NCBI GenBank assembly: GCA_024680915.1
Contig: JAILBN010000071.1
Span: 1-63,842 of the forward strand
Origin: Treponemataceae bacterium
Lineage (GTDB): Bacteria > Spirochaetota > Spirochaetia > Treponematales > Treponemataceae
Direction: 5' to 3'
Length of the DNA: 63,842 bases
Part shown: positions 6,536 to 27,803 of the stretch, piece by piece
How the letters are laid out: each line of letters opens with the position of its first letter
Position numbering within the stretch: position 1 is the first letter of the stretch
Notes under the pieces: model-generated
Databases searched by the model: none
Told to the model about the DNA's origin: nothing
Seen by the model: the letters and a program-made list of their open reading frames with translations, nothing else
Translations under genes and position numbers: made by a program

Positions 6536-6549
6536 TTAAGCTTCCTTTC
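6523..6549. terminator. Inverted repeat over two convergent stop codons
   Basis: GAAAGGAA (6523-6530) pairs with TTCCTTTC (6542-6549) around an 11-nt loop that contains both stop codons. There is no T-run of terminator quality on either strand, so it may be only a weak bidirectional terminator or RNA-protecting hairpin. Confidence 0.35.
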
Positions 6550-9332: not shown

Positions 9333-10421
9333 ATGAAAGATAAAGTAACAGTTATTATTACAATTAGAAACAGAGAAGCCATACGAATTGAAAGACAAGT
9401 TGAATCAATACGGAAATATGGTGCGGATCCTACAATTCATGTCGTTGATTACGGCTCTGATCATGATTATGCCACTGCATATAAGAATTTATGCGAAAAG
9501 CTGGGTATACAATATACTCATTTATATGCTGAAGGCTTACCTTGGAATAAATGTAGGGCAATCAATTATGGTGTAATAAGAGCTAAGACACCATTCATAG
9601 TTACAAGTGATGTGGATATGATTTATGAAGATAATCCTTTTCAATGGTGTCTCGATAATTATGAAGAAAAATCAATGTTTCATATTGAAACATATTGGCT
9701 GAATAAGAATGGAGATAGAAAAAATGCCTCATATGCAGGACATGGAAATTCTGGTGGATTTCAATTTATAAGAAGAGATGCTTTTATAGAACTTGGAGGT
9801 TATGACGAACGTATCGAATACTGGGGCTATGAAGATCTTGATTGGCCTGAAAGACTAAAGACGCTTGGATACAAACAAATCTGGCTTCCTGAGAAGTTCA
9901 AACTTTTTCATGTTTGGCATGAAAAAGTTTCAGATAGCTATAATAGACCTAATACGATAGATGTAAATTCATTAAGTTTTTGTTTGGAAAATCTTTTTTC
10001 GCCTACATTAAAAAAAGACGTTGGGGTAAATCTTGAAAAAACGGATAGACCAATATTAGATTACATTGATAAACAACCACCCTATCTTTTATGCATTGAT
10101 ACAAATGATTTGTCAAAATGGGCTTTTCTGGAAAAATTTGTAAATGAAATAAAAAGTCATGAGTTTATAAAACTTCAAATTTCACCTCGGTTAAAAAAAA
10201 GGCCTTTAGATTTTCTTAGGGAAAGGATAAAATCAATATTAAAACCTATTACAGCCCTTACAGGAACAAAAGTTATATCAAATATAAATAAAAATTTTGA
10301 TTTTTTTTATGAATACATTCCAATTCTGAAAAGATTTGGATTAAGAGACTATTATATTTCAAATAATTCAGAAGTTATTTATTTATTGTGGAAGAAGGAG
10401 TTAAATACTAAATGTCTTTAG
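9333..10421 (+). CDS. Glycosyltransferase with GT2 and galactosyltransferase-like C-terminal region
   Basis: The 362-residue protein opens with VTVIITIRNREA, contains VDYGSDHDY (nucleotide contact) and TSDVDM around residue 90 (DxD metal motif), and then GGFQFIRRDAFIELGGYDE plus YWGYEDLDWPERL, a combination seen in chondroitin-polymerase/galactosyltransferase-type (GT27/GT7-like) C-terminal modules. About 110 further residues after this are AT-rich and unassigned. It probably adds one hexose or hexosamine; specificity is unknown. Its end overlaps the start of the next gene by 10 bp. Confidence 0.75.
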   Translation: MKDKVTVIITIRNREAIRIERQVESIRKYGADPTIHVVDYGSDHDYATAYKNLCEKLGIQYTHLYAEGLPWNKCRAINYGVIRAKTPFIVTSDVDMIYEDNPFQWCLDNYEEKSMFHIETYWLNKNGDRKNASYAGHGNSGGFQFIRRDAFIELGGYDERIEYWGYEDLDWPERLKTLGYKQIWLPEKFKLFHVWHEKVSDSYNRPNTIDVNSLSFCLENLFSPTLKKDVGVNLEKTDRPILDYIDKQPPYLLCIDTNDLSKWAFLEKFVNEIKSHEFIKLQISPRLKKRPLDFLRERIKSILKPITALTGTKVISNINKNFDFFYEYIPILKRFGLRDYYISNNSEVIYLLWKKELNTKCL

Positions 10422-11317
10422 GATCTCTGTTAAAAAATATTCCTTTTGAACTGGAACGGGAGATAGTTAAAAGATGGAATACTTTCTTCAAATTGCGTCC
10501 CTCCAGCAAACCCTTTCTTTCTGGAGATACATTTAGAGCCATATCAGATTTTTTATATGATAATACTCATCTTTGCACTCATGAGGAAATCAATCTAGCT
10601 GCGATTGATACTCCAACTGTCTTTGTCAGTTCGTATTTATTAAGTGATTTTTCAGCGAAAGTTCTACCTTTTATAGAAAAGGAAATCATACTATTAACCC
10701 ATCAAGGTGATGTGAATATAACCAATGATGATTTTTTTAAAAGTATTGCTGAGAATCATAAAATAAAAAAATGGTTTGCACAAAACTGTACTCTCCAGCA
10801 GGAGAAAGTCATTCCACTTCCTATAGGTCTTGAGGATAGATGGAGACATAATGCCGGTGCGATAGCAGATTTCAAGAACAAGAAATACAAAAAAATGAAA
10901 AAGCTCCCTAATATACTATACGGATTCTCTATAAATACGAATCCGCCCAAAAGAGTAGCTTGTTATCTTGCTTTATCAAAAAAAAAGAATACTCATGAGG
11001 TCTATAATAATTTAAATTCCCATCTTTATCGAAAACTACTTTCTAAGTTTATGTTTGTTGCTTCTCCGGAAGGTAATGGACTTGATTGCCATAGAACATG
11101 GGAAGCAATGTATTTCGATGTGGTCCCTATCGTTGAAAGAAATTATATGACAGAGTATTTTGCATCTTTAGGTTTGCCAATATGGATTATCGATGATTGG
11201 AATGAGGTTACGGAACTTTCTGAAGAAAAACTTTCGGAAAGATACTTTAATATTATAGAAAAATCAAATCCAGAAGGTTTATGGTTGGATTTTTGGGTAA
11301 AGGAGATGGTAAAATGA
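10412..11317 (+). CDS. Exostosin-like glycosyltransferase
   Basis: The 301-residue protein lacks the GT2 and GT4 signatures but carries FMFVASPEGNGLDCHRTWEAMYFDVVPIV (about residues 213-241), which matches the donor-binding region shared by exostosin/GT47-like bacterial proteins (SPxGxGxDxHRxWEA). The N-terminal 100 residues have no recognised motif. An AAGGAG site lies 11 nt upstream of the ATG, which overlaps the previous gene. Its TGA overlaps the ATG of the following gene (ATGA), so translation is coupled. The assignment as a glycosyltransferase rests on this motif and context. Confidence 0.6.
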   Translation: MSLGSLLKNIPFELEREIVKRWNTFFKLRPSSKPFLSGDTFRAISDFLYDNTHLCTHEEINLAAIDTPTVFVSSYLLSDFSAKVLPFIEKEIILLTHQGDVNITNDDFFKSIAENHKIKKWFAQNCTLQQEKVIPLPIGLEDRWRHNAGAIADFKNKKYKKMKKLPNILYGFSINTNPPKRVACYLALSKKKNTHEVYNNLNSHLYRKLLSKFMFVASPEGNGLDCHRTWEAMYFDVVPIVERNYMTEYFASLGLPIWIIDDWNEVTELSEEKLSERYFNIIEKSNPEGLWLDFWVKEMVK

Positions 11318-12027
11318 TACCCCACATAATACATCAAATATGGATAGGTAGTGAATTACCAGAAAAATATAGACAATTTACAACCTCAATGAAAAAAATG
11401 AATCCCGATTGGGAATATCATCTCTGGGATCAAGAAGCTATTCTCTCACTATCAGATTTTCAAAACAAAGAAGCTTATCTGAAATCCAAAAGCTTTGGTG
11501 TAAAATCAGACATTGCAAGATATGAGATACTAAATCAATTCGGCGGCTTTTATTTTGATACTGATTTTGAATGCATAAAACCTCTTGATTCCCTGGCAGA
11601 TAAATACCGTTTAGTTTTATGTAAAATGGATAAGAATAGTGATGGAGTTAGTAACGGAATAATAGGATGTATTCCTCAGCATTTTGTCATACAGGATATT
11701 TGTAATGAAATAAAACCAATAAAAACAACTGAAATGATGGATATAATAGATGGAACCGGGCCTGGTTTGATATCCAAAATAGTTGAAAGAAACAAAAATA
11801 ATTTAACCTCAGAAGATATAATTCTTCCTACCGATTCTTTTTTTCCAATCCCGGCTAATTCAGAAATTTTCTATACAGACAAAATGAAAAATTATTATAC
11901 TGCCAACACATATGCTGTTCATTATTGGGCACAGAGTTGGTTCGATAAAACTTTTAGCGGTTGGTTGGAAAGAAAATATCACAGAGGAATAAAAAAAATA
12001 AAAAAATTTTTAAAAGGCAAAAAATGA
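11314..12027 (+). CDS. GT32-type glycosyltransferase with DxD motif
   Basis: This 237-residue protein starts MIPHIIHQIWIG, the classic opening of OCH1/capsular GT32 enzymes, and holds SDIARYEILNQFGGFYFDTD with the DxD metal-binding motif near residue 80. The start at 11314 is chosen because it makes the protein begin exactly at the family N terminus, has AAGGAG upstream, and gives an ATGA overlap with the previous stop; an ATG 33 bp upstream is in frame but has no such support. The lysine-rich C terminus suggests peripheral membrane binding. Donor sugar unknown. Confidence 0.85.
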   Translation: MIPHIIHQIWIGSELPEKYRQFTTSMKKMNPDWEYHLWDQEAILSLSDFQNKEAYLKSKSFGVKSDIARYEILNQFGGFYFDTDFECIKPLDSLADKYRLVLCKMDKNSDGVSNGIIGCIPQHFVIQDICNEIKPIKTTEMMDIIDGTGPGLISKIVERNKNNLTSEDIILPTDSFFPIPANSEIFYTDKMKNYYTANTYAVHYWAQSWFDKTFSGWLERKYHRGIKKIKKFLKGKK

Positions 12028-12055
12028 TCATATTAACTAAAACCATAGGGAAATA

Positions 12056-12901
12056 ATGTGTAGTATGAAGAAAACATACATAAAAATCTTTGCAGGATTA
12101 GGTAACCAGATTTTCCAATATTGTTACGGGCTATTAAGGCAACAGGAAGGTATAAATGTACATTATATTCTTGCGAAGACATATGATAAAAATGGGAATA
12201 GCTATGATATAACAGATGTTTTTAATCTATTCGATATAAATGGGGCGTTGGCAAATAATATTTTCTCTCCAATGGGAAAGTTTTCAAATTTACGTATCAT
12301 TGCAAAAAAAATTTTTGCAAAATATATAATAGGCTCTTACGAGACAGATTTTTATCAAAAAGCTGACTATATTGAAAAATTAACGACAAAAAAAAGTATT
12401 CATGATTACATATCCTTTAGGAATAAAGAAATCTACATGCAAACGGACTTTTTCAAGCAAATAAAAAACTGCAAGAACTCTGTAAGCATGCATATCCGTG
12501 GTGGCGATTATCTTGGAGAAGGGAGCCCATTCAGTGGAATCTGTACGAATGAATATTACAAAAATGCAATTCGATATTTGAAGGAAAGGCTTGAAAACCC
12601 CCATTTTTTTATTTTTACCAATGATAGAGATTTTTGTAAATCAATTTTCAATCCTTTGGAAATAAAAAAGGAAGATTATACTATAATAAATGATGACTCC
12701 TCTTTAAAAGATGATCCAGGCTATGACTTGTTTTTAATGTCCACTTGTAATAATAATATAATAGCGAATTCTACTTACAGCTGGTGGGGTGCATACTTGA
12801 ACAAAAATGAAGATAAACTTGTTATAACTCCTGATAAATGGACGAATACAAACACTCCTTCGCTAGAAGAAATAAAACCAAAAAATTGGATACGGCTATG
12901 A
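12056..12901 (+). CDS. GT11 family fucosyltransferase-like (first copy)
   Basis: GT11 enzymes transfer L-fucose from GDP-fucose, usually in alpha-1,2 linkage. This 281-residue protein has FAGLGNQIFQYCYG at the N terminus, MHIRGGDYL (about residues 144-152) and the C-terminal NSTYSWWGAYLN motif of the family. The usual HxRRxD motif reads HIRGGD here, so the second arginine is replaced by glycine; the copy at 15437 keeps HIRRGD. AGGG lies 5 nt before the ATG. The next gene, a LicD homologue, starts inside its stop codon (ATGA). GDP-fucose can be made by gmd and fcl at 25718-27803. Confidence 0.82.
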   Translation: MCSMKKTYIKIFAGLGNQIFQYCYGLLRQQEGINVHYILAKTYDKNGNSYDITDVFNLFDINGALANNIFSPMGKFSNLRIIAKKIFAKYIIGSYETDFYQKADYIEKLTTKKSIHDYISFRNKEIYMQTDFFKQIKNCKNSVSMHIRGGDYLGEGSPFSGICTNEYYKNAIRYLKERLENPHFFIFTNDRDFCKSIFNPLEIKKEDYTIINDDSSLKDDPGYDLFLMSTCNNNIIANSTYSWWGAYLNKNEDKLVITPDKWTNTNTPSLEEIKPKNWIRL

Positions 12902-13749
12902 ATAAAAGGACAATTCCAGACAGGCGCTTAGAAAAAGATACACAGCTTGAACAAGCTCAAGAAGTGATGCTTGGTTTATTAAAAGTTTTTGTTGATATCT
13001 GCGAGAAAAACAATTTTACCTATTGGCTTGATGGTGGAACTCTTTTAGGAGCAGTACGTCATAAAGGTTTTATTCCTTGGGATGATGATTTGGATGTTTG
13101 TATGCCATTAGAAGATTACAAAAAATTTCTAGTCCTACCGGATTCAGAATTTCCTGAATATATCTATCATGACAAAAGGGATGGCTTTCAAAGGCTGAGA
13201 GATCGATACAGTAAGAGGATAGATGAAGAAACTGATTCTGACAAGGATTTTATAAGTATTTATATGGATATTTTCCCTATGAAAAAATATCCATATATGA
13301 GGAGAATACTTGCAAGAATAAGGATGTGTATGCCTCCTTACACTCCCCCAAGTATTAATAAAAACACTTCAAATAAAATTATAAAAATCAGAAGGTTGAT
13401 TGCAAACTTGGTTTTCTATTTATTAACCTATACTGGTTTACAATTTATTATCAGATTCTTATCTCTTTTTGGGCCTAAGACTGTATGGGGTTACGATTTA
13501 GGTGCCACATGGCATTTTCATTATAAAGATAAATGGATTTTTCCCCTCAAAAAAATGCAATTCGAAGACGATAGCTTTTATGTTCCTTATGATTGTGATG
13601 CCTACCTTTCTTACCTTTATGGGAAAGACTATATGACTCCTAAACCAGATAACCATCATAATAATATAAGTATTCTTCCTACAACGCCTTGTAATCATCC
13701 GGAAGCAAGAAATTGGTTTGAGGATTTTCCTGAGACCATGAAAAAATAA
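12898..13749 (+). CDS. LicD family phosphotransferase (first copy)
   Basis: LicD proteins transfer a phosphoryl ligand such as phosphocholine from a CDP-activated donor onto a glycan. The 283-residue protein has YWLDGGTLLGAVRHKGFIPW followed by DDDLDV (around residue 57), the nucleotidyltransferase-like metal site, and an RYSKRID stretch and a middle hydrophobic segment near residues 165-185. The start at 12898 is chosen for the ATGA overlap with the GT11 stop, in place of an in-frame ATG 60 bp earlier inside that gene. With the choline genes at 18494-22572, phosphocholine is the best-supported ligand, but this is inference. Confidence 0.88.
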   Translation: MNKRTIPDRRLEKDTQLEQAQEVMLGLLKVFVDICEKNNFTYWLDGGTLLGAVRHKGFIPWDDDLDVCMPLEDYKKFLVLPDSEFPEYIYHDKRDGFQRLRDRYSKRIDEETDSDKDFISIYMDIFPMKKYPYMRRILARIRMCMPPYTPPSINKNTSNKIIKIRRLIANLVFYLLTYTGLQFIIRFLSLFGPKTVWGYDLGATWHFHYKDKWIFPLKKMQFEDDSFYVPYDCDAYLSYLYGKDYMTPKPDNHHNNISILPTTPCNHPEARNWFEDFPETMKK

Positions 13750-13801
13750 TCAAAGGTCATCAAAATGATTGTATAGGAGCATATTATAAAAGGATTTTTC
13801 G

Positions 13802-14563
13802 ATGAAGATATTTGTAATAAATTTAAAAAATGCTGAGGAACGGAGAAATTTCATGACTCAGCAACTAAAAGAATTAAACCTCGATTTTGAATTTATAGAT
13901 GCTATTTATGGTAAAGATTTCTATGATGATGACAAGTATTTTGCCAGGGAAGCTTCAAAAAAATATGAAAAAAGATTGATGACCCCTGGAGAAATAGGTT
14001 GTGCTCTTAGTCATCAAATAATTTATAAAAAAATGATTGCTGAGAATATTCCCTATGCCCTTATTTTTGAAGATGATGCTGTTATCTCCCCTGACCTTAT
14101 CAAGGTTTTACCTGAACTTGAAAAAAACATTCATCCTAATCAAATGATTAATCTTGCAAAGTGTGACCTAGCTTACAAAAAAAACAGGATACATATCTAT
14201 GGTGAATACTTTCTTTCTAAACCTTATATGGTAAAATATGGTTCGATAGCATATGCAGTAGGTTATATAATAACAAAAGAAGCAGCGGAAACAATACTTT
14301 CAATAAATTTTCCGGTATTTACGCCTGCGGATAACTGGGGCTGCTTTAGAAAACTAATAGATTTCCGAGGCATAACACCTACACATAAATTAGTTCGTCA
14401 AAATATGTCTTTTGAAAGTTCGATAATCACAGGTATAAGAGATACATCAAAAAGTTCAACAATTGGAACTATGCTCTTTTATCATTTTTATACACAATGG
14501 GCTTTAGGTCGTTTTTTGAAAAAAATATATCAAAGAACAGTAAAGAAATGGATGAAAAAATGA
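13802..14563 (+). CDS. Glycosyltransferase family 25
   Basis: This 253-residue protein resembles LPS/LOS GT25 galactosyltransferases such as LgtB/LpsA. It starts MKIFVINLKNAEERR, continues with the FIDAIYGKDF strand, MTPGEIGCALSHQIIYKKM (about residues 60-78) and YALIFEDDAVI with the acidic metal motif. The typical KYGSIAYAVGYIITKEAA stretch lies further on. AAAGGA 7 nt upstream supports the ATG. The C terminus is very basic, fitting a membrane-associated cytoplasmic enzyme. It lies between the two GT11-LicD pairs. Confidence 0.82.
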   Translation: MKIFVINLKNAEERRNFMTQQLKELNLDFEFIDAIYGKDFYDDDKYFAREASKKYEKRLMTPGEIGCALSHQIIYKKMIAENIPYALIFEDDAVISPDLIKVLPELEKNIHPNQMINLAKCDLAYKKNRIHIYGEYFLSKPYMVKYGSIAYAVGYIITKEAAETILSINFPVFTPADNWGCFRKLIDFRGITPTHKLVRQNMSFESSIITGIRDTSKSSTIGTMLFYHFYTQWALGRFLKKIYQRTVKKWMKK

Positions 14564-14625
14564 CAAGCGAAGAAATAAAGACAATCTATTCTGAATTGAA
14601 TAATTCATTTAAAGAGGTAAAATAA
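14560..14625 (+). CDS. Possible 21-codon ORF coupled to GT25 gene
   Basis: An ATG inside the GT25 stop (ATGA at 14560-14563) opens a 21-residue frame, MTSEEIKTIYSELNNSFKEVK, ending 3 bp before the next gene. It covers almost all of the gap. It could be a translated coupling peptide or the remnant of a deleted gene; it could also be chance. There is no homology evidence. Confidence 0.25.
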   Translation: MTSEEIKTIYSELNNSFKEVK

Positions 14626-14628
14626 TAT

Positions 14629-15450
14629 ATGCCTACGATTGTACAAGAAGGCACTGCAGCCAAGGGAAATATATATAGTCAAGCTGATGTAACTGTTATC
14701 ATACCTGCCTTTAATTCGGAAAAAACAATTGTCAGAGCCTTAGATTCAGTTTATAAACAAAATAAACGACCAGCAAAGATATTGATCATCAACGATGGTA
14801 GTAAAGATAATACTGAGATCGTATGCAGAGAATGGATTAGTAATAATCCTGATATAGCTTGTGATTTTATAACAACAGAAAACAAAGGTGTTTCAAGTGC
14901 AAGAAACGAAGGATTAAAGCTAGCGAAAACCTCCTTGGCAGCTTTTCTCGATTCAGATGATACCTGGACACCTGATAAAATTGAAAAACAACTTGAGGTA
15001 TTTAATAGCAATTCATTTTCTTTATGCAACTTAGTCTGTACCGGAAGTATTTTACGTTCAGTTTCTGGGAAAACATATCAATTATCAAAAAGAAAACTTT
15101 TATTTAGCAATCTTGTTGTTACATCGTCTGTTTTAGTAAAAACAGACGTTATTAAAAAATATTTTTTTGATAGCAGACTTAAACGTTCCGAAGACTTTAA
15201 TCTTTTGTTAAAAATAGCCGCAAGAGACAAAGGAATAATAATTGTAGATTCAATCCTTACCAATTATACGATTGATTCTACGCAAAACAAACTTTCAAAT
15301 GATAAGAAGAATTTTCAAAAGGATGAAATAAGAAATTTTTGTTTTCTATTAAATGAACATTATATTTCTTTAGGAGAATTTCTCCTAGCATCAATATTTT
15401 CTTACATAAAATACATTAGAAGAGGTATTATTAAACATGAAAATTGTTAG
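14629..15450 (+). CDS. Glycosyltransferase family 2
   Basis: The 273-residue protein is a standard GT2 enzyme: VTVIIPAFNSEKTIVRALDS (about residues 17-36), INDGSKDNT for the nucleotide, SSARNEGLKLAK, and FLDSDDTW with the DxD-like metal site (about 104-111). The catalytic half ends near residue 200 with KRSEDFNLLLKIA. The first 15 residues before the domain are not conserved-looking. GAGG 9 nt upstream of the ATG supports the start. It overlaps the following GT11 gene by 14 bp. Confidence 0.82.
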   Translation: MPTIVQEGTAAKGNIYSQADVTVIIPAFNSEKTIVRALDSVYKQNKRPAKILIINDGSKDNTEIVCREWISNNPDIACDFITTENKGVSSARNEGLKLAKTSLAAFLDSDDTWTPDKIEKQLEVFNSNSFSLCNLVCTGSILRSVSGKTYQLSKRKLLFSNLVVTSSVLVKTDVIKKYFFDSRLKRSEDFNLLLKIAARDKGIIIVDSILTNYTIDSTQNKLSNDKKNFQKDEIRNFCFLLNEHYISLGEFLLASIFSYIKYIRRGIIKHENC

Positions 15451-16357
15451 AATTTCAGGGGGACTTGGAAATCAGATGTTTCAATACGCCTTTTCCCTGG
15501 CATTGAAACATGCTGGAAATAAAGATGTTAAGCTTGATTTAAGTGCTTATGGTAGAAAAACTGATTATAAAGGTATAGATCTTGTACACAATGGTTTTGA
15601 ACTTAAAGAGCTTTTTGATGTTGATTACCAAGAAGCCTCTGAATTGGAAGTTTCTACCCTATCCTATCAGCCTACTTCATTATTTAATCGTATCTTAAGA
15701 AAATATTTCACAAAAAAAACACACTTTATTGATAAGCAATTCTCTTTTCAGCCGGATTTACTGCTTCCAAATAACAATAATACATATTTGGAGGGAGATT
15801 GGCAAAGTGAGAAGTATTTTTTGTCATTAGAGGAAGAAATCAGACGATGTTTTTCTTTTAAAAAAAAGCTGTCATCAGAAACAGAGAGAATTGTAACTGA
15901 ACTTTCTTGCAATAGTGCCAGCATTCATATTCGTCGTGGCGACTATCTGAATACGCAGACTATGAATATATGTGGCAAAAAATATTATCTTAATGCAGTT
16001 AATAAAATGATTACCCTTGCCCCCATAGATGAATTACTCGTATTCAGCGATGATATGGATTGGTGTCGTAATGAATTGAAACTTGAGGATTTTGGCTTTA
16101 AAGTCATTTATGTGGATTGGAATCAAGGCAAGGACAGTTGGCAGGATATGTTCCTGATGTCAAAATGTAGGAATCATATAATTGCGAATTCTTCGTTCTC
16201 TTGGTGGGGAGCTTGGTTGGATCCAAACAAGAATAAAATTGTAATATGTCCTGAAATATGGGATTTACGGCAACTGAATCCTAATATAGACAAGTATTAC
16301 AGGTACAATTATAATGATATTATTCCTTTCGGTTGGTTGCTTTGCCCCATAAAATAA
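15437..16357 (+). CDS. GT11 alpha-1,2-fucosyltransferase (second copy)
   Basis: The 306-residue protein has the full set of GT11 motifs: ISGGLGNQMFQYAFSLAL at the start, YLEGDWQSEKYF in the middle, SIHIRRGDYLN (about residues 161-171, intact HxRRxD) and IIANSSFSWWGAWLD near the end. It should transfer fucose from GDP-L-fucose to a galactose or similar residue, likely in alpha-1,2 linkage. Like the first copy it is followed directly by a licD gene. The two GT11 proteins share motifs but differ in length and in most other residues, so the duplication is not recent. Confidence 0.9.
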   Translation: MKIVRISGGLGNQMFQYAFSLALKHAGNKDVKLDLSAYGRKTDYKGIDLVHNGFELKELFDVDYQEASELEVSTLSYQPTSLFNRILRKYFTKKTHFIDKQFSFQPDLLLPNNNNTYLEGDWQSEKYFLSLEEEIRRCFSFKKKLSSETERIVTELSCNSASIHIRRGDYLNTQTMNICGKKYYLNAVNKMITLAPIDELLVFSDDMDWCRNELKLEDFGFKVIYVDWNQGKDSWQDMFLMSKCRNHIIANSSFSWWGAWLDPNKNKIVICPEIWDLRQLNPNIDKYYRYNYNDIIPFGWLLCPIK

Positions 16358-16374
16358 AAGAAACAGGTCTTATC

Positions 16375-17301
16375 GTGGATACAGAAATTAAAGTAAATGA
16401 TTATAAACCAGAAAAAGCAGCAGAATTATTTCCTGATGAAAGACTTAAGGAAGGAAGCAACCTACAGAGAGCCCAGCGGGTAATGCTCCGCATACTGAAG
16501 GTTTTTAATGCAATCTGCAGAAAATATGATCTGGAATACTGGTTGGATGCTGGTACACTTTTAGGCGCAGCTCGTCATGGTGGTTTTATTCCATGGGATG
16601 ATGATGTGGATGTAATGATGCCTATTGAAAGCTATGAAAAGTTCTGTTCTATAGCAGAAAAAGAACTACCTTTCGATATGTTTTTCCAGACAAAGAAAAC
16701 AGATTCACAACATGATATTACATGGGCAAAAATCCGTGATCGTTTCAGCTATATGGAAGACCCAGGAGGACCATATCCATACTGTCAGGGAATACCAATA
16801 GATATTTTTCCTGCATATATTCAAACAAAAAGACAATTCAAAAAACGTAACATCGTTAGTCTTTTCCCACCCTTTAATAATCCTCCATTGAAAATTTCAA
16901 AGCGGTATTCTTTTATGCACAATGCATATAACTTTATTATTGGATTTTTTCAACATTTTGCGAAAGGCTTTTATTCTATACCATTATTTTATAATCGTTT
17001 TGACAGAAGAATGAAGGCACAGTTGCCTGATAATGTAAAAGGATTTGCCTATAATCCAGAACGACCTTGGTTTCAATTCTTCCCTATTGACGTTGTTTTT
17101 CCCCTTTCTGAAATTACTTTCGAAGGATATTCTTTTTCTGCTCCAAATGATGTGGATAAATATTTAACCATAGATTATGGAGACTGGAGAACCCCACCCC
17201 CAGAGAATAAAAGAGATGTTCATGGTACTACAGGTATTCATCTGACAGACGCTGGTCCCAGCCCTGACAAGAATAGTTTGAAGTGGGAAGATTACCATTA
17301 A
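16375..17301 (+). CDS. LicD family phosphotransferase (second copy)
   Basis: This protein of about 308 residues shares the LicD core LEYWLDAGTLLGAARHGGFIPWDDDVDV (around residues 52-79) with the copy at 12898, including RAQRVMLRILKVF before it and a C-terminal WRTPPPENKRD segment. It is expected to place a phosphoryl group such as phosphocholine on the glycan. The start is uncertain. GTG at 16375 with ACAGG 7 nt upstream is preferred; TTG codons at 16333 and 16342 lie inside the preceding gene without a ribosome-binding site. It completes the second GT11-LicD pair. Confidence 0.87.
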   Translation: MDTEIKVNDYKPEKAAELFPDERLKEGSNLQRAQRVMLRILKVFNAICRKYDLEYWLDAGTLLGAARHGGFIPWDDDVDVMMPIESYEKFCSIAEKELPFDMFFQTKKTDSQHDITWAKIRDRFSYMEDPGGPYPYCQGIPIDIFPAYIQTKRQFKKRNIVSLFPPFNNPPLKISKRYSFMHNAYNFIIGFFQHFAKGFYSIPLFYNRFDRRMKAQLPDNVKGFAYNPERPWFQFFPIDVVFPLSEITFEGYSFSAPNDVDKYLTIDYGDWRTPPPENKRDVHGTTGIHLTDAGPSPDKNSLKWEDYH

Positions 17302-17319: not shown

Positions 17320-18441
17320 ATGCGTATTCTTCATATTATAACGAATACAGACCTGGGAGGAGCACAACGAATTGTAATAGATTTATGTGCCTCGGCAGTT
17401 AAGGATGGTCATACTGTAGCGGTGGCGTCAATGGAAGGGGGGCCAATGTGGTCGCTTCTACCAGAGTCTGTAGTTCGTCATTCCTTACCGCATATGGTAA
17501 AGCCTATAAAACCCTTGAAAGAAATCCCTTGTTTTTTTGAAATAAGAGCTGTCATAAAAAACTTTAATCCTGACATCATCCATCTTCATTCTAGTAAAGC
17601 AGCCCTTTTAGGAAGACTTGCCACCCCTCCCAGACTACAAAAAAGAATTGTGTATACTGTCCATGGATTTGATACAATCCGGGTTCGAAACCGCATATTT
17701 CTTCCATTAGAAAAAATCATGCAGAAAAAATGCGGTGCTATTATTCCAGTCTCAGAATATGACTACAAAAATTTAAGAACTGAAGGTATTACGCATAAGC
17801 TTACTCTCATAAGGAACGCTGTTCCTGACACACCTGCTTTCTCAGAACATGAATTACCCTTGCAGATAAAAGAACCTCTCTTGAAGGCAAAAGCTGAAGG
17901 TAAAAAAATTATTATGACAATAGCTCGTATTGCTCTTCCTAAAAGATTAGATATATTTACCGATATAGCAAGGTCATTAAAAGATGATAACTGTGTTTTC
18001 TTCTGGATTGGCTCTCCTACTGATAGTACATTGGAAGGAGATTTGAAGAAATATCAAGAAACAGCATCTGTAATTTTTACCGGAGATATTCCCAATGCAT
18101 CCCGTCTCATTTCATATACAGATGTTTTTGTACTTTTTTCAGACTATGAAGGTCTCCCTATAACCATACTTGAAGCCATGGCAAAAGGCAAACCCGTCAT
18201 CGCATCGAATGTGGGAGGAATATCAGAACTTGTGGATGATAATACCGGCAGCCTTATTCCAGTCGGAAAAACACATGATTCAGTAGAAGCTTCTGTTAAG
18301 GCAATAAAAACACTTATTTCTGATAAAAAACTTATTCAGGAAAAGGGTGAGAAAGCCAGAAAAAAATACGAAAGCTATTTTACACTTGATACTATGTGGA
18401 AAAAATATTTTTCTGTTTATTCTCTTTTGGCCGATGAATAA
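17320..18441 (+). CDS. Glycosyltransferase family 4
   Basis: The 373-residue protein is a GT-B glycosyltransferase: TDLGGAQRIVIDL (about residues 10-22), IHLHSSKAALLGR, VYTVHGFD, then the second domain with IARIALPKR and DYEGLPITILEAMAKGKPVIA (about 272-292) carrying the E-x7-E donor motif. It ends the central plus-strand run of the glycan locus and stands tail to tail with the choline-island operon. AGGGAG upstream supports the ATG start. The sugar it transfers cannot be told from sequence. Confidence 0.88.
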   Translation: MRILHIITNTDLGGAQRIVIDLCASAVKDGHTVAVASMEGGPMWSLLPESVVRHSLPHMVKPIKPLKEIPCFFEIRAVIKNFNPDIIHLHSSKAALLGRLATPPRLQKRIVYTVHGFDTIRVRNRIFLPLEKIMQKKCGAIIPVSEYDYKNLRTEGITHKLTLIRNAVPDTPAFSEHELPLQIKEPLLKAKAEGKKIIMTIARIALPKRLDIFTDIARSLKDDNCVFFWIGSPTDSTLEGDLKKYQETASVIFTGDIPNASRLISYTDVFVLFSDYEGLPITILEAMAKGKPVIASNVGGISELVDDNTGSLIPVGKTHDSVEASVKAIKTLISDKKLIQEKGEKARKKYESYFTLDTMWKKYFSVYSLLADE

Positions 18442-18493: not shown

Positions 18494-20035
18494 TTATTTA
18501 TTTATTCCTTTTTCATTCATATACTTTTTGGAATCTTTTAAAAAGCTCCATATCATCAGAATCATTATTATACCAATGGGGAAAGCACTTATAATTGATA
18601 CAGACTGTATATTTCCCATCGAGCTTTCACTGAAAACGAGTGCGATAGGAAGAACTATAAGTAACAAACACCAGAGCAAAGTAATCATTGTATGTGGTTT
18701 TTCGTTCTGTCCCAGCTTCTTATAACTATAACAAGCCGCTGTGTATGCTATGGAGTCGAAACTCGTGGCATAGAAAGCTATCATACAGAGCAGAATCCAT
18801 ACAAGGAAAAACTTGCTTCCTGGTAAAGTATTGACAATATTCATTATCAAAGCATATAAATCACCACTAGCTTCGTATTGGGCTATGAAATTCTGAGCCC
18901 CTATGGTCTGTAAACCTAGACTATAATTACCCAATACAATAAAAGAAACAATAGTGCTACCTACACCAAAGATATACCCCCCAAGAATAGTCTGCTTCAC
19001 AGTCCTACCTCTGGATATATTTCCGATGAAGAATGGAGCCGCGATACACCAAACCATCCAATAAGCCCAGTAGTAAATTGTCCAATCTTGCGGGAAGTTA
19101 TTACTCCTTCCTGGATCAGCATATGTACTCAAACCGATAAATTCCTGGACCATTTTGCCAAGACTCTGTATTCCGTTCTCAATTATAAAACGTCCCTGTC
19201 CTCCAATAAAAAGGACAATTAGTAAAAGACCAAAAAACAGATATATACAAAGCTTTGCAAGAAAGGATATTCCCTTGAAACCGTGCAGAACAGCGTAAGT
19301 ATATACTGCACACGTAATAATCAGGATAATAATAGTTACTGCAGTACGAGAGATAGATATACCGAATAAGGTAACAATAATCTCTGCCATCAATGGGGTG
19401 GCGACTGAAAAGGTTGTAGCCGTACCAGCAAGCAAAGCGAACAATGCAAACAAGTCAATAATTCTGCCTATTATACCATGAGCATGTTTTTCACCAATAA
19501 CAGGAAGGCAGGCTTCGCTATAACGTTGTTTTTCTCTTTTTCTACAATGTAGCATAAAACCGAAGGCTACGGCCAGCACAAGGTAAAAAGCCCAAGGGAT
19601 AAAGCTCCAGTGAAACAAGGGAAATACTCCAGCCCACTCCGTAACACTTCCACCCATTTCTGAAATATGTGGATTCGTGGCATACATAACCCATTCCGCG
19701 AAACTATAGAATAAAATATCCGCTGCTAATCCACAAGTGAACATCATGGAGCCCCATGTGAAAAAATTGTATTTAGGTTTTTCGGTTTGCTCTCCAAGAA
19801 CAATATTTCCATACTTACTGAATGACAGAAAAATGGAGACTACAAGAACCCCGATTCCTATAATCAGGTAATAGCTCCCTAAGGTATCACCAAAAAAGAA
19901 TCTAACCTGAGAAATGACTCCATTTGCCTGATCAGGAAAGATAAAAAGGTATACAGCAAGAGCCATTATAATAATAAAAGGGACCAAAGTTATCATCCAG
20001 TCTATTCTGCTCTTTTCCCTTCCTGTATTTTTCAT
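18494..20035 (-). CDS. BCCT-family choline/betaine transporter
   Basis: BCCT carriers import choline, carnitine or glycine betaine with Na+ or H+. The 513-residue protein has about 12 hydrophobic segments and the family signature around WTIYYWAYWMVWCIAAPFF followed by GNISRGRTVKQ, with a Trp-rich substrate region. The start at 20035 is chosen because GTGAGG lies 6 nt upstream; the GTG at 20047 is itself part of that site. It is the last gene of a three-gene unit with LicCA and LicC, so choline is the likeliest substrate, in the role that LicB plays in Haemophilus. It ends before a strong terminator. Confidence 0.9.
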   Translation of the reverse strand: MKNTGREKSRIDWMITLVPFIIIMALAVYLFIFPDQANGVISQVRFFFGDTLGSYYLIIGIGVLVVSIFLSFSKYGNIVLGEQTEKPKYNFFTWGSMMFTCGLAADILFYSFAEWVMYATNPHISEMGGSVTEWAGVFPLFHWSFIPWAFYLVLAVAFGFMLHCRKREKQRYSEACLPVIGEKHAHGIIGRIIDLFALFALLAGTATTFSVATPLMAEIIVTLFGISISRTAVTIIILIITCAVYTYAVLHGFKGISFLAKLCIYLFFGLLLIVLFIGGQGRFIIENGIQSLGKMVQEFIGLSTYADPGRSNNFPQDWTIYYWAYWMVWCIAAPFFIGNISRGRTVKQTILGGYIFGVGSTIVSFIVLGNYSLGLQTIGAQNFIAQYEASGDLYALIMNIVNTLPGSKFFLVWILLCMIAFYATSFDSIAYTAACYSYKKLGQNEKPHTMITLLWCLLLIVLPIALVFSESSMGNIQSVSIISAFPIGIIMILMIWSFLKDSKKYMNEKGINK

Positions 20036-20090
20036 TAAAAACCTCACTTTATTGAAAAATCACAATATCTTATAAATAAAAAAAACTTTT

Positions 20091-20801
20091 TTATTTAATT
20101 TTATAAGATGGATCTATAACCACTAACTCGTCAAAACTATCAATCTCGCATATATCTTCACTTTTCATCGGGAATACACCTAGTTCAAAGCTTTCTGAAT
20201 GACAGAACATTGCTACATCATCCCAATATATCTGTCTATTATTTTTAGTGATGAATTCCTCTTCAAGGAAGGATTGTAGTTTTTTTCCGTCTTCTTTGGA
20301 CCAACGAGAAATACTGTATAACTGCCAGCCATCATTCCCACCAGTCCTGGAACAAGATGTTACAATTCCATCTTCATTTACTTGCATTACCCATTCATCT
20401 GTAGCATAATCAATTTTTACAGCATTATATCCTGACCGTTCGAAGTCAGGACAAAGAATAGTATCATTGTATATTATTTGATCACCATCAAGTATTATGA
20501 CATTATCAAGCTTTTCTTTTGCAACATATAATGAAGAAATATTATTACATGAATCAAAATAAGGATTCTCTATAATCTGAATTCCTTGCTGCCGTTCTGC
20601 CCATGAATAAAACTGTTCTTTTAAATATCCGACCACAACGTATATTTCATTAATTCCTTGTTTTCTCAAAGCAGCTATAATGGTATCTATCATTCGATTA
20701 CCGTTGACTTTTATCAATGGTTTGGGCGTTTTCAGCGTTACTGGTCGCATTCTGTTTCCCAGGCCTGCTGCCATTATTATTGCCCTTTCGACTCTATTCA
20801 T
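20091..20801 (-). CDS. licC: LicC-like CTP:phosphocholine cytidylyltransferase
   Basis: The 236-residue protein is a nucleotidyltransferase with AIIMAAGLGNRMRPVTLKTPKPL (residues 7-29), VVVGYLKEQF, NISSLYVAKE, a LDGDQ metal site near residue 99, and IYWDDVAMF plus CEIDSFDEL late in the chain. These segments closely follow pneumococcal LicC, which makes CDP-choline from CTP and phosphocholine. The upstream LicCA fusion already has such a domain, so this enzyme may be redundant or may use another phospho-alcohol, for example phosphoethanolamine or 2-aminoethylphosphonate. It overlaps the LicCA stop by 8 bp. Confidence 0.8.
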   Translation of the reverse strand: MNRVERAIIMAAGLGNRMRPVTLKTPKPLIKVNGNRMIDTIIAALRKQGINEIYVVVGYLKEQFYSWAERQQGIQIIENPYFDSCNNISSLYVAKEKLDNVIILDGDQIIYNDTILCPDFERSGYNAVKIDYATDEWVMQVNEDGIVTSCSRTGGNDGWQLYSISRWSKEDGKKLQSFLEEEFITKNNRQIYWDDVAMFCHSESFELGVFPMKSEDICEIDSFDELVVIDPSYKIK

Positions 20802-22720: not shown

Positions 22721-24109
22721 ATGTTAGTTATGAAATTTTCAAGGAAACGTAGACAATTTTTCATTTTTTTTATTGATCTTCTGATAATGATTTTATCTGT
22801 TTATATTTCTTTGGCGATAAGAAATTTATATTTACCTACTTTTCTTTCATTTTTAGTCCATTTATTGAATTATCCACTTGTAATATTAACATGGGTTGTG
22901 ATTATGTATACCTTGGGTATGTATTCACTGGAGATACCCTTCCGTACAGACAAGACTCTGATAAAACTATTGGTGAGTGCTACCGCCGGAACTCTTGTAG
23001 GTTTCGCTACCTTTTACCTTTTTTCCTCCGATGATGGAATTCTCCCTAAAACTGTTCTTGTCGTATATAATCTTACATCTCTTTTCCTCATCTACTTTTG
23101 GAGATATATTTTTGACAAGCATTTTTCAAATAATAAAAACCTTAATAAATATGTTTTCATAGGATATAACGAAACTGTAGAAAGCTTGCTTGAGCTTACC
23201 AGCAAGAATTCATATGTGAATTTTTCTCCTACAGCTGTATTTGACGAATTTATAAGCATTCGTCCCTCTAATTTACCAGAATCAGTTACTTTCTTGCATA
23301 CATACGATGAACTTAAGATTTTTTTAGCAAATAATACTATAAAAGTTTATGTGATGCCTTCAGAAAAGATTTTTTCTTCTGAAGTCAGACGTCTTTTGTT
23401 CGATGCTTTAAGTAACAGAGCTGTTTTTTATTCTTTGCCTGATTTTTTTGAAGTTATGACCCGCAGGATACCTCTAGGCGCAATAAATGAATCTTGGTTT
23501 CTACGTCATATTCATTTTGAAAGCCGTGGACTTTACTATATATTAAAAAGATTTTTTGATGTTATCATTTCAGGAACTCTTTTATTGATAACAATTGTTT
23601 TTTGGCCATTATTTGCTATAATAATAAAGGTAGAAAGCAAAGGACCTGTTTTCTTCAGGCAGATTCGAGAGGGTAAAAGTGGCAAAAGATTTACACTATA
23701 CAAATTCAGAACTATGAGAAGCGAAGACAATAATTTTTCTCCTACAACCGAAAAAGACAATAGAATCACCAAATTCGGGAATATAATGAGAAAAACAAGG
23801 ATTGATGAACTTCCTCAGCTCCTGAATGTCATTAAAGGGGATATGAGTCTTATAGGCCCGCGTCCAGAAAGGCCAGAGCTTTCAGCAGAATTAGAAACAA
23901 CCGTTCCTTTCTTCAAGCAGAGATTGATGGTAAAACCAGGAATAACTGGATGGGACCAAGTTTCAGGAGAATATCATTCCCCATCGAAGGAAGATACATA
24001 CAAAAAACTGCAATATGATTTATATTATATAAAAAATCAGTCTCCGATGCTTGATATATCAATTTTTTTCAAGACAATAATGACGATTTTTCTCCGGCAA
24101 GGAAGATAA
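22721..24109 (+). CDS. Polyprenyl glycosylphosphotransferase (WcaJ/WbaP type)
   Basis: This enzyme starts glycan synthesis by moving a sugar-1-phosphate from a nucleotide sugar to undecaprenyl phosphate. The 462-residue protein has an N-terminal block of about four membrane helices (13-125), a Rossmann-like middle domain (KYVFIGYNE onward), a further helix near 275, and the conserved catalytic domain with FRQIREGKSGKRFTLYKFRT, DELPQLLNVIKGDMSLIGPR and KPGITGWDQVSGEY. The sugar is unknown. Two in-frame ATG codons (22721, 22730) are possible starts. It lies 6 bp before the outer membrane protein gene. Confidence 0.93.
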   Translation: MLVMKFSRKRRQFFIFFIDLLIMILSVYISLAIRNLYLPTFLSFLVHLLNYPLVILTWVVIMYTLGMYSLEIPFRTDKTLIKLLVSATAGTLVGFATFYLFSSDDGILPKTVLVVYNLTSLFLIYFWRYIFDKHFSNNKNLNKYVFIGYNETVESLLELTSKNSYVNFSPTAVFDEFISIRPSNLPESVTFLHTYDELKIFLANNTIKVYVMPSEKIFSSEVRRLLFDALSNRAVFYSLPDFFEVMTRRIPLGAINESWFLRHIHFESRGLYYILKRFFDVIISGTLLLITIVFWPLFAIIIKVESKGPVFFRQIREGKSGKRFTLYKFRTMRSEDNNFSPTTEKDNRITKFGNIMRKTRIDELPQLLNVIKGDMSLIGPRPERPELSAELETTVPFFKQRLMVKPGITGWDQVSGEYHSPSKEDTYKKLQYDLYYIKNQSPMLDISIFFKTIMTIFLRQGR

Positions 24110-24115
24110 CATTTT

Positions 24116-25675
24116 ATGTTAAAAAAATTATTTTTATTTTTAGGTCTGATATTTTCAGTCCTGTTCCCATTTTTCTCTGAAGGAAAATATAAAATAAATA
24201 AAGTCACCTATGATATTTCTGGTATTACCAGGGAATCTGTCCTTTCTCAAAATCTAAATATTGATACATCAACTATTTTTGAGTCATCAGAAGATTTTTA
24301 TGCTTACTTAGAAACAATAAAACAGAATATAGAGAATTATAGGGTCATAGAAAGTTCTGAAATCATAGAATCCTTTTCCGAAGAAAATGAAGAAGGATTA
24401 ATTTACGTTGATTTAATCATAAAAACCGTTGATTCATTAAATTTTGTTATAGTCCCCTATCCTACATATGATGTTAACACTGGTTTTAAGCTTAAACTGA
24501 AAATCAAAGATTATAATTTTCTTGGATCTATGGATGAATTCAACAGTTCTTTGATTTATTTCCTTAAAATCGATGAAGATAGTGGTAATGCATCAAATTA
24601 TTTTGATTTTTCTTTTGGCTTTGATGTACCTTTTCAGTTAGGTCTATTTAATTGCAAATGGAACAATGCCTTTTCTTTGAACTATGTCATAGGCGATTCT
24701 AATATAGGTTTTAATATAAAAGAAGGTATAGATTTTAGCGCACCTATTTATAATATCACTACATTCAATTTTAATCTTTCTCAAAGTTTTATACAAAATC
24801 CAGCATTAAATAATGATGATTTATTTCATTTCAACACATCGGCATCTCTTTCCCTTCCTTTTAATATTGCCCAAATACCAAATGTAGGTTATTTGACCTG
24901 GGCTCCAGGAGTTTCCTTTAATTTCAACTGGGATAAGGATATTTTTTTAGGAGCAGATGATTTCGGTATAACTACACCATATTTGCTTGGTCCTGTCCTG
25001 ACAATTTTCCAAAGACTTTCTGTATCAAGGGTTAATTGGATTGAGAATTATAAAGATGGCTTCTCTACGCAAGTTAATATAAACTATTCTTATAACTTCA
25101 CCACATATTCCTATGATCCAAATATAAATATGCAGCTGGAATATTACAAGGCATACACCAAAAACTCTATTTCATCACGATTATACTATTTTATAAATAC
25201 TAACGGTCAGAATTCTCCAGTCGGAGATAGAATTCGTGGTATTCGAGATAATGATATCTCTTCCGCAAGTGCATTTTGTTTGAATATAGATGTTCCTATA
25301 AAATTATTTCAGACTGACTGGGTAGGATGGTTGAAAAACGCGACAGGAAAAGAATTGAATTGGTTAGCTTATGTGGATTTCGAAGCTCAGATTTCACCCT
25401 TTTTTGATTTTATAATCGGTCATAATTCCAAAACAGGTTCCTTTTTCAATTTTAGAGATGCTCACATAGCATCAGGTTTTGAAATTTTAGGTTTTCCAAA
25501 CAAGTTCAGGAGTATTCAAGGTCGTGTGAGCTTTGGAATGGACTTAGTAAAAGTCGCTATGTTTATAGGTGAAAATGTAAATTTTGTAAATAATCTAACG
25601 ACAAAAATTTTCAATACTTCTTGGAGAAAAGACCCTTGGTGGGAGCTATTTTTCGGCATAGGTCTTTTTTATTGA
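24116..25675 (+). CDS. BamA-like outer membrane beta-barrel protein with one POTRA-like domain
   Basis: The 519-residue protein has a signal peptide (hydrophobic residues 5-20), a POTRA-like domain at about 25-108 (KINKVTYDISGIT..., ending in a YVDLIIKTV strand), then about 400 residues of alternating strands rich in aromatic residues (KLKLKIKDYNFLG onward) and a C-terminal FFGIGLFY, which fits a barrel insertion signal. The layout is that of the Omp85/BamA superfamily, but with fewer POTRA domains than true BamA. It follows the initiating glycosyltransferase by 6 bp, suggesting a role in placing the glycan at the outer membrane. That role is inferred. Confidence 0.7.
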   Translation: MLKKLFLFLGLIFSVLFPFFSEGKYKINKVTYDISGITRESVLSQNLNIDTSTIFESSEDFYAYLETIKQNIENYRVIESSEIIESFSEENEEGLIYVDLIIKTVDSLNFVIVPYPTYDVNTGFKLKLKIKDYNFLGSMDEFNSSLIYFLKIDEDSGNASNYFDFSFGFDVPFQLGLFNCKWNNAFSLNYVIGDSNIGFNIKEGIDFSAPIYNITTFNFNLSQSFIQNPALNNDDLFHFNTSASLSLPFNIAQIPNVGYLTWAPGVSFNFNWDKDIFLGADDFGITTPYLLGPVLTIFQRLSVSRVNWIENYKDGFSTQVNINYSYNFTTYSYDPNINMQLEYYKAYTKNSISSRLYYFINTNGQNSPVGDRIRGIRDNDISSASAFCLNIDVPIKLFQTDWVGWLKNATGKELNWLAYVDFEAQISPFFDFIIGHNSKTGSFFNFRDAHIASGFEILGFPNKFRSIQGRVSFGMDLVKVAMFIGENVNFVNNLTTKIFNTSWRKDPWWELFFGIGLFY

Positions 25676-25717: not shown

Positions 25718-26797
25718 ATGAAAAATATTGCTTTGATTACAGGTATTACAGGTCAAGATGGCTCTTTTCTTGCAGAGTTTCTGCTTGACAAAGGATATGA
25801 AGTTCATGGAATTCTTCGAAGATCTTCATCTTTTAACACTGGTAGGATAGAACACCTCTATATAGAAGATTTAATAGAAGATATGCATAAAGATCGACGT
25901 ATTTATCTTCACTATGGTGATATGACAGATTCTATAAGTCTCACAAGGTTAATACGTGAGATTCAACCTACAGAAATATATAATCTTGCAGCACAATCCC
26001 ATGTTCAGGTTTCTTTTGAGGTACCAGAATATACCGCAGATACAGATGCCACAGGGGTTCTTCGTATTCTTGAAGCGGTACGTTTCCTTGGACTTGAAAA
26101 AACATGCCGTGTTTATCAAGCCTCAACTTCAGAATTATTCGGAAAAGTACAAGAGATTCCACAAAAAGAGACAACGCCCTTTTATCCGCGTTCTCCATAT
26201 GCAGTAGCTAAACAATATGGATATTGGATTATAAAAAATTATAGAGAAAGCTATGGAATGTATGCTGCTAATGGAATTCTATTCAATCATGAATCAGAAC
26301 GAAGAGGAGAAACATTCGTCACAAGAAAAATAACACTTGCGGCCAGTAGGATTGCAAATGGATTCCAAAAAAAATTATATCTTGGTAATCTTAACAGCTT
26401 ACGTGATTGGGGATATGCGAAGGATTATGTTGAATGCATGTGGTTGATTCTACAACAGAAGGAACCAGAGGATTTTGTCATAGCAACAGGGGAGCAATAT
26501 TCAGTAAGGCAGTTCTGTCAGCTTGCTTTTAAGGAAGCTGGAATCGACATTGAATTCAAAGGTGAAGGACTAGATGAAAAGGGCTACGATAAGGCAAGTG
26601 GAAAAGTTCTTATTGAAGTAGATCCCAAGTATTTCAGACCTTGTGAAGTCGATACTCTATTGGGAGATCCCACAAAAGCAAAAGAAAAATTAGGGTGGAA
26701 CCCAAGAAAAACAAGCTTTGAGGAACTTGTAAAAATCATGATGAAGCATGATCTTGAATTTGTCGTAAAAGAAGCAAATTCAAGAATAAAAAAATAA
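25718..26797 (+). CDS. gmd: GDP-mannose 4,6-dehydratase
   Basis: Gmd converts GDP-D-mannose to GDP-4-keto-6-deoxymannose, the first committed step to GDP-L-fucose. The 359-residue protein has [15 protein letters not shown] (8-22, NADP-binding), [13 protein letters not shown], the STSELFGK segment with the catalytic Thr/Glu region, [10 protein letters not shown] with the catalytic Tyr and Lys near 159-163, and [15 protein letters not shown], a highly specific Gmd motif. Length is normal. AAGGA upstream supports the ATG. With fcl 34 bp downstream it supplies the donor for the two GT11 enzymes. Confidence 0.96.
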
Positions 26798-26831: not shown

Positions 26832-27803
26832 ATGAACGAGAATTCACGCATATATGTAGCTGGACATAGGGGTCTTGTAGGAAGTGCAATTGTACGCAAC
26901 TTACAATCGAAAGGATATCAGAATCTTATAACCAGATCCCATAGTGAACTGGACTTATTAAAGCAAGCAGATGTTGATAATTTTTTTAAACAAGAAAAAC
27001 CTGAATATGTTTTTCTTGCGGCTGCTCATGTAGGAGGAATAGGAGCAAATTCCACCTACCCTGCTGATTTCATCTACCAGAACATGATGATAGGATTCAA
27101 TATAGTAGAAGCATCAAGAAAATATGATGTAAAAAAATTAATGAATCTGGGCTCAACATGTATATATCCCAAAATGGCTCCTCAACCGATACAGGAAGAA
27201 TCCCTCCTGACAGGCCCCCTTGAACCCACAAATGATGCTTACGCCCTGGCTAAAATCAGCGTTATAAAGCTTTGTACAGCCTATAACAAACAGTACAATA
27301 CAGACTTTCTGTCTGTAATGCCTACTAATTTATATGGAATCGGTGATAACTATGAGTTATTTGGTTCTCATGTTCTCCCTGCTCTTATTCGGAAATTTCA
27401 TGAAGCTAAAGTAAGCGGAAAAAATGAAGTTGAATTATGGGGAGACGGATCTCCCCTTAGGGAATTCCTTTTCAGTGATGATCTTGCAGAAGCGGTCGTT
27501 TTTCTAATGGAGAACTGTAAAGCATCTGATTTAAGAACACCCACAGGAGACTTCGTCAATGTTGGAAGCGGAAAAGAACTGACAATAAAGGAACTTGCAG
27601 AAACTATAAAAGATATAGTTTATGAGGATTCTCCTGATCAAGTGTGTAAGATTTCCTGGGATAAATCCAAACCCAACGGGACTCCAAGAAAACTTTGCGA
27701 TATTACAAGACTTTTAAAATTAGGATGGACTCCAAAAACTGATCTTAAAGACGGTATAAGAATCTCCTATGAGGATTTTTTGAAAGCCTCAACTAGAATG
27801 TAA
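26832..27803 (+). CDS. fcl: GDP-L-fucose synthase
   Basis: Fcl (WcaG) epimerises and reduces GDP-4-keto-6-deoxymannose to GDP-L-fucose. The 323-residue protein shows IYVAGHRGLVGSAIVRNL (7-24), AAHVGGIGANSTYPADF, NLGSTCIYPKMAPQPIQE with the catalytic Ser and Cys, YALAKISV (Tyr/Lys near 137-141) and MPTNLYGIGDNY. All are standard for the family. It is the last plus-strand gene of the glycan locus. No clear T-rich terminator follows; only a weak AT hairpin lies in the gap to the convergent gene. Confidence 0.96.
   Translation: MNENSRIYVAGHRGLVGSAIVRNLQSKGYQNLITRSHSELDLLKQADVDNFFKQEKPEYVFLAAAHVGGIGANSTYPADFIYQNMMIGFNIVEASRKYDVKKLMNLGSTCIYPKMAPQPIQEESLLTGPLEPTNDAYALAKISVIKLCTAYNKQYNTDFLSVMPTNLYGIGDNYELFGSHVLPALIRKFHEAKVSGKNEVELWGDGSPLREFLFSDDLAEAVVFLMENCKASDLRTPTGDFVNVGSGKELTIKELAETIKDIVYEDSPDQVCKISWDKSKPNGTPRKLCDITRLLKLGWTPKTDLKDGIRISYEDFLKASTRM

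Follow-up and report, generated by a model that had tools for sequence, protein, structure and literature searches.

A conserved and once fused GT11-LicD gene pair in a probable surface-glycan locus of a Treponemataceae bacterium

The genes described here belong to a predicted glycan locus in a 63,842-nucleotide stretch of DNA (the window; contig JAILBN010000071.1 of assembly GCA_024680915.1) from a Treponemataceae bacterium. Genes of glycosyltransferase family GT11 and of the LicD phosphotransferase family adjoin each other twice in this locus, at 12056-13749 (pair A, GT11-A and LicD-A) and at 15437-17301 (pair B, GT11-B and LicD-B), and the two pairs are separated by a GT25 and a GT2 gene. 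This arrangement was noted in an earlier reading of the DNA made without database searches (the sequence-only reading). The open reading frames (ORFs) and Pfam scores bear it out, with both GT11 genes above the cut-off of 23.9 bits (PF01531), both LicD genes above that of 22.6 bits (PF04991), and the GT25 and GT2 genes scoring 138.8 and 103 bits. The same reading called the paralogues clearly diverged, as indeed they are (30% identity between GT11-A and GT11-B, 37% between LicD-A and LicD-B). A search of every contig of the bacterium's own genome (G000; 3.15 Mb in 134 contigs) found no GT11 or LicD genes beyond these two of each. LicD-A is likelier to start at the ATG at 12898, which overlaps the stop codon of GT11-A by 4 nucleotides (ATGA), than at 12838, and LicD-B probably starts at the GTG at 16375 instead of the TTG at 16333.

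Pair B is conserved among relatives. The comparison set comprised 274 genomes of the family, with G333/G507 as an order-level outgroup, and orthologs of LicD-B at 63-72% identity were found in four other family genomes (G261, G262, G046 and G047). All five family carriers, G000 included, have a GT11-B gene (50-71% identity) directly 5' of LicD-B, and they belong to two genera. In G261 the two genes form a single frame of 643 amino acids (aa), in which the GT11 domain lies at residues 16-297 and the LicD domain at 375-596, both above cut-off. LicD is the next gene downstream for 6 of the 48 GT11 matches in the family genomes, five of these being type B and the sixth GT11-A of the window. Since pair B recurs in five genomes it is not attributed to chance, and it is predicted to be an inherited, conserved functional unit. 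Among 80 named loci from many phyla that carry a LicD-B-like gene, a GT11 gene lies within 10 kb in two, so the linkage appears to be specific to this spirochaete lineage and no general habit of LicD genes.

Another LicD of G261, LicD-C, is fused to a homologue of the window GT2 (550 aa; L065 11873-13525) and each LicD in that genome thus has its own glycosyltransferase. At 9963-13525 of this G261 locus (L065), four successive locus genes are fused two by two, as LicD-C/GT2 and GT11-B/LicD-B. No second Pfam domain was found in the longer LicD proteins of G214 and G211.

Orthologs of GT11-A occur in G262 (64% identity), G046, G269, G271 and the outgroup, and in none of these does a LicD adjoin it. 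G046 has the same order of GT32 and GT11-A as the window, followed by a deacetylase gene. LicD-A has an ortholog in one other genome, G047 (61% identity), where a GT25 gene follows it as in the window and from which GT11-A is absent. The left block of the window (GT2, GT2, RXYLT1-like, GT32, GT11-A) resembles G046, and the right block (LicD-A, GT25, GT2, GT11-B, LicD-B, GT4, Bac_transf) resembles G047. The region is better parsed as GT32-GT11A, LicDA-GT25, GT2 and GT11B-LicDB, with pair A most probably the junction of two locus blocks, in coincidental contact. Within the 11-gene same-strand run, and with pair B kept as one unit, LicD-A directly follows GT11-A in about 1 in 10 random orders, so pair A needs no special explanation. 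The sequence-only reading had proposed that both pairs place fucose and phospho-ligand on a shared part of the glycan. That view is supported for pair B (adjacency in five of five carriers, one fusion) and is not supported for pair A, where GT11-A is otherwise without an adjoining LicD and LicD-A goes with GT25. Adjacency in a single genome can mislead, since comparison re-parsed pair A as two different modules.

Both LicDs have the WDDDxD motif and a later aspartate (D75, D76, D77, D79 and D143 in each), which are invariant in an alignment of 44 sequences from the window and related loci. We take this cluster as equivalent to D360, D362, D364 and D416 of human FKRP, residues with catalytic or metal-binding roles (PMC6965139). 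The AlphaFold model of LicD-B (predicted local distance difference test, pLDDT, 86.5) aligns to the catalytic domain of FKRP at a Z score of 18.3 and a root-mean-square deviation of 3.0 over 168 residues, the next family reaching a Z score of 10.4. Characterised LicD-family enzymes (FKRP, Mf1) transfer a phospho-ligand onto a hydroxyl from a donor linked to cytidine diphosphate (CDP), with release of cytidine monophosphate (CMP) (PMC6965139, PMC11982090). The model of the Mf1 cholinephosphotransferase is the only NCBIfam match of both LicDs, and because they score 96 and 75 bits against its cut-off of 225 they are not Mf1 equivalogs.

We consider it rather probable that this is a mosaic surface-glycan locus, in which GT11-B and LicD-B form one catalytic unit, LicD-A belongs with GT25 and GT11-A with GT32, pair A is a block junction, and phosphocholine is the likeliest ligand. 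The GDP-mannose 4,6-dehydratase (GMD) and GDP-fucose synthase-type enzyme (GMER) of the locus would supply guanosine diphosphate (GDP)-fucose, from which GT11-B would add a sugar, most likely fucose. LicD-B would then take a phospho-ligand from a donor linked to CDP or CMP and move it onto the sugar added by GT11-B or onto its neighbour, in the cytoplasm and on a lipid-linked glycan intermediate. LicD-A would decorate a different sugar, most likely the product of GT25, and GT11-A would carry out a separate fucosyltransferase-like step together with GT32. Action of GT11-B and LicD-B on a shared part of the glycan fits their adjacency in five genomes and their fusion; the identity of the sugar, the order of the steps and the ligand are what we infer.

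A complete CDP-choline cassette (BCCT, LicC and LicCA) adjoins the pairs on the opposite strand, between the GT4 gene and the gene for the initiating transferase. CDP-choline being the nearest donor supply, phosphocholine is the likeliest candidate ligand in G000. The cassette is in the same place in G265, and it is missing between the same two genes in G262. G265 proved unusable as a LicCA carrier without LicD, as its contig breaks off within BCCT, just where the glycan genes would be expected next. Among the five LicD-B carriers a LicCA or choline kinase above cut-off was found only in G000, with none in G261, G262, G046 or G047. Phosphocholine is therefore not a property of the pair, since these four genomes lack LicCA and have different cytidylyl-activation genes. 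PepM occurs in G262 and in G047; G262 also carries decarboxylase- and transaminase-type genes and one LicC-like gene, and G047 a nearby 634-aa LicC-like frame. G046 has a fusion of LicC-like and threonine/serine-phosphate-decarboxylase-like parts. On contig C22 of G261 (L174 3225-11607) a winged-helix LicC-like gene lies amid genes for an ATP-binding cassette (ABC) transporter (ATPase, permease, SBP_bac_6). Next come a gene whose product joins 60KD_IMP and sulfatase-like parts and a CDP-glycerol-phosphotransferase-like gene, and the group might serve to take up and activate a phosphonate or a similar compound. The own genome has, on contig C30 (L173:4569-6383), a 604-aa protein in which a LicC-like cytidylyltransferase is fused to a pyridoxal-phosphate enzyme, with orthologs (~49% identity) in G046, G214 and G265. 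Its best match in the PDB is 6oux (threonine-phosphate-decarboxylase-like, 150 bits), and it could make CDP-ethanolamine from O-phosphoserine.

None of four candidates serves as a donor source common to the LicD-B carriers. LicCA is missing from four of the five, and the CDP-ethanolamine fusion is not in G261, G262 or G047. G000, G261 and G046 have no PepM to make 2-aminoethylphosphonate, and each of these three has only two CTP_transf_like genes, of CoaD/NadD size, which dismisses CDP-glycerol made via TagD. Some LicC/PntC-like gene is present in every carrier, yet this proves nothing because such genes are common in the family, 198 of the 274 genomes matching the LicCA query at E <= 1e-3.

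One serious alternative concerns the ligand alone and can be combined with a GT11-B/LicD-B unit. The cassette may serve synthesis of membrane phosphatidylcholine, as in Treponema denticola, with the LicDs using another donor such as CDP-ethanolamine from the contig C30 fusion; we regard this as possible, though somewhat less than an even prospect. In T. denticola, LicCA and CPT carry out phosphatidylcholine synthesis (PMC8590670), and a CPT1-like CDP-alcohol phosphotransferase is present in G000 and in three other LicCA carriers of the genus (four of four tested). Presence of LicCA is not associated with that of LicD in the family (12/28 versus 79/246, Fisher p 0.29, uncorrected for kinship), the other LicD-B genomes are without LicCA, and the own genome itself encodes the LicC-like and serine/threonine-phosphate-decarboxylase-like fusion. 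However, the cassette is embedded in the glycan locus, flanked by GT4 and the initiating transferase, it has a separate LicC besides LicCA, and both LicDs match the Mf1 model, even if far under its cut-off.

Mf1 takes CDP-choline and CDP-ethanolamine alike (PMC11982090), so a donor-flexible LicD-B is possible. The GT11-B/LicD-B pair might then be a fucose-linked phosphotransfer module indifferent to the zwitterionic head group, and species would swap the epitope by changing the donor cassette: phosphocholine through LicCA, phosphoethanolamine through the LicC-like and serine-phosphate-decarboxylase-like fusion, 2-aminoethylphosphonate through PepM/PntC, or an imported compound. We consider this extension doubtful.

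It is unlikely, in our estimate, that the adjacencies have no functional meaning at all, both having arisen by chance as surface-glycan loci shuffle their glycosyltransferases and LicDs. Gene order in the locus does vary greatly among relatives, and pair A is a contact expected by chance about once in ten. The outgroup locus (G333/G507) also has two GT11 and two LicD genes, and there GT2 and LicD-C come after GT11-B, and LicD-B is found about 7 kb further on. The adjacency of GT11-B and LicD-B must therefore have been gained or lost, and it is a feature of the family and not of the order. Against chance stands the retention of pair B in all five carriers from two genera, despite change in many other genes of the locus, and its fusion in one of them. 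The separation in the outgroup weighs against a single catalytic unit in a mosaic locus, as do several further points. The orders GT32-GT11A and LicDA-GT25 are each supported by one other genome only, the CDP-choline cassette may feed phosphatidylcholine synthesis instead, and a PDB sequence search found no solved relative of either GT11.

The histories of the two gene families differ. In a tree of 37 GT11 proteins, GT11-A falls in a clade of six members (support 100/99) and GT11-B groups with a G262 protein and the G261 fusion (98/97). A sister relationship between the two window genes is rejected by the approximately unbiased test (p-AU 8e-90), and a single clade of the two GT11 subfamilies is weakly rejected (p-AU 0.03). 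The HxRRxD motif of alpha-1,2/1,6-fucosyltransferases is present in GT11-B as HIRRGDY; GT11-A has HIRGGDY, and the second arginine is replaced throughout the A clade. HxRGGDY occurs in eight GT11 proteins among the loci, all of type A or from its genomes, and type B has HxRRGD. The first arginine of the motif is reported to be critical (PMC4202792), and because type A keeps it these proteins may be active, though as a distinct subfamily. GT11-A and GT11-B represent two old, separate subfamilies. A single clade (100/98) unites the LicDs found in loci of this type and divides into branches A, C and B, so these genes did multiply within the locus, before the family and the outgroup split. The GT11 and LicD trees, whose congruence the sequence-only reading had asked for as support of module duplication, are incongruent, and on that ground duplication of the whole pair is rejected. 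That an entire GT11-LicD module was duplicated and both copies place fucose and phospho-ligand on the same glycan part at two sites, as the sequence-only reading had envisaged, is very improbable: the identical order of the two adjacent pairs and the duplication of the LicDs within this locus type agree with it, but the GT11 genes come from subfamilies with different motifs, and GT11-A has no neighbouring LicD in any other genome seen.

The remaining genes of the locus are listed with the pairs in Table 1. Three neighbouring frames stand outside it. At 6536-8479 (minus strand) a GHMP (galactokinase-like) kinase is fused to a GalU-like nucleotidyltransferase (647 aa; 80% conserved in G262). The product of 10412-11317 (plus strand; 53-57% conserved in G046 and G262) has a weak match to RXYLT1_C (E 1e-4, below cut-off). 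RXYLT1 is the human ribitol xylosyltransferase that acts after FKTN and FKRP, which makes this neighbour curious since the adjoining LicDs are relatives of FKRP. The frame at 24116-25675 (plus strand; 519 aa) has no Pfam match, is 43-71% conserved at the corresponding position of G047, G262 and G265, and, as a guess from its sequence, may encode an outer-membrane beta-barrel protein. Proteins of ~840-930 aa with 60KD_IMP (YidC-like) and sulfatase or lipoteichoic acid (LTA)-synthase-like parts recur in the glycan loci of relatives, often beside a PF04464 gene, and none was found in this locus of the window.

Table 1. Genes of the locus, in positions of the window, and one protein type of related loci (prefix L)
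Feature	Position	Strand	Evidence and context
GT32-type glycosyltransferase (Gly_transf_sug)	11281..12027	+	PF04488 54 bits; conserved 5' neighbour of GT11-A; GT32-GT11A order also in G046 (L069)
GT11-A, likely fucosyltransferase or close variant	12056..12901	+	PF01531 77.5 bits (residues 98-279); HIRGGDY instead of HxRRGDY; clade 100/99
LicD-A phosphotransferase	12898..13749 (ORF open from 12838)	+	PF04991 122.7 bits; G047 ortholog 61%; catalytic Asp intact
GT25 glycosyltransferase	13802..14563	+	PF01755 138.8 bits; conserved 3' neighbour of LicD-A; LicDA-GT25 order also in G047 (L068)
GT2 glycosyltransferase	14629..15450	+	PF00535 103 bits; homologue fused to LicD-C in G261 (L065 11873-13525)
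GT11-B, HIRRGDY subfamily, conserved LicD-B partner	15437..16357	+	PF01531 99.2 bits; clade with G262 and G261 fusion 98/97
LicD-B phosphotransferase	16375..17301 (ORF open from TTG 16333)	+	PF04991 147.5 bits; orthologs 63-72% in 4 genomes; FKRP match Z 18.3
GT4 glycosyltransferase, conserved 3' neighbour of LicD-B	17320..18441	+	PF00534 95 bits; same place in G262 and G333/G507
BCCT-family choline/betaine transporter (donor supply cassette)	18494..20047	-	PF02028 404 bits
LicC-like CTP:phosphocholine cytidylyltransferase	20091..20801	-	1jyk (pneumococcal LicC) 122 bits, residues 6-225
LicCA: cytidylyltransferase and choline kinase, N-terminal winged helix	20794..22593	-	4r77 (choline kinase) 113 bits; 1jyk 84 bits; PF01633 above cut-off
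Initiating polyprenyl-phosphate sugar-1-P transferase (Bac_transf)	22721..24109	+	PF02397 212 bits; TIGR03025 above cut-off
GDP-mannose 4,6-dehydratase (GMD; GDP-fucose supply)	25718..26797	+	PF16363 505 bits
GDP-fucose synthase-type epimerase/reductase (GMER)	26832..27803	+	PF01370 219 bits; after GMD also in G262, G265
60KD_IMP and sulfatase/LTA-synthase-like proteins	L066:15001-17682, L069:9207-11927, L068:17387-19900, L174:7579-10380

Zwitterionic phospho-groups on bacterial surface glycans influence host recognition, and the acceptor sugar and donor are established for very few LicDs. A LicD that is kept beside one particular glycosyltransferase, and once fused to it, gives a direct prediction of the acceptor sugar. 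Because close orthologs of LicD-B occur in genomes with different donor genes, a single enzyme and a handful of CDP- or CMP-linked substrates would suffice to test which donor is chosen. To our knowledge no GT11-LicD unit that also occurs as a natural fusion has been described, and among the papers searched only two genome reports bring LicD, fucose, phosphocholine and glycosyltransferase together; the component parts are all members of known families.

The pneumococcal lic system (LicA, LicB, LicC, LicD1 and LicD2) resembles this locus in having a choline transporter, a choline kinase, LicC and two LicD paralogues. LicD1 and LicD2 of S. pneumoniae add phosphocholine to O-6 of N-acetylgalactosamine (GalNAc) residues in teichoic acid (PMC4649388). 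Here, in contrast, the transporter is of the BCCT family, kinase and cytidylyltransferase are fused as LicCA, the setting is a spirochaete glycan locus with GDP-fucose genes, and the LicDs of relatives occur without LicCA. The human ribitol-phosphate transferases FKRP and FKTN are also of the LicD family, and the modelled LicD-B resembles the catalytic domain of FKRP and keeps the metal-binding aspartate pattern (PMC6965139), although LicD-B lacks the stem domain. Mf1 of Mycoplasma fermentans, the source of the sole NCBIfam match (PMC11982090), acts on a glycolipid, and the window LicDs lie below its equivalog cut-off. The bacterial GT11 alpha-1,2-fucosyltransferases WbsJ and FutC share the GT11 domain, and their HxRRxD motif is kept in GT11-B, whereas GT11-A has HxRGxD, retaining the arginine reported as critical and not the second (PMC4202792). 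T. denticola combines LicCA-CPT with phosphonate activation by PntC (PMC8590670, PMC6697681), and a LicCA-like fusion and a CPT-like enzyme are likewise found here, with PepM in two LicD-B relatives; unlike in T. denticola, LicCA is part of a glycan locus that also has LicDs, and the own genome is without PepM.

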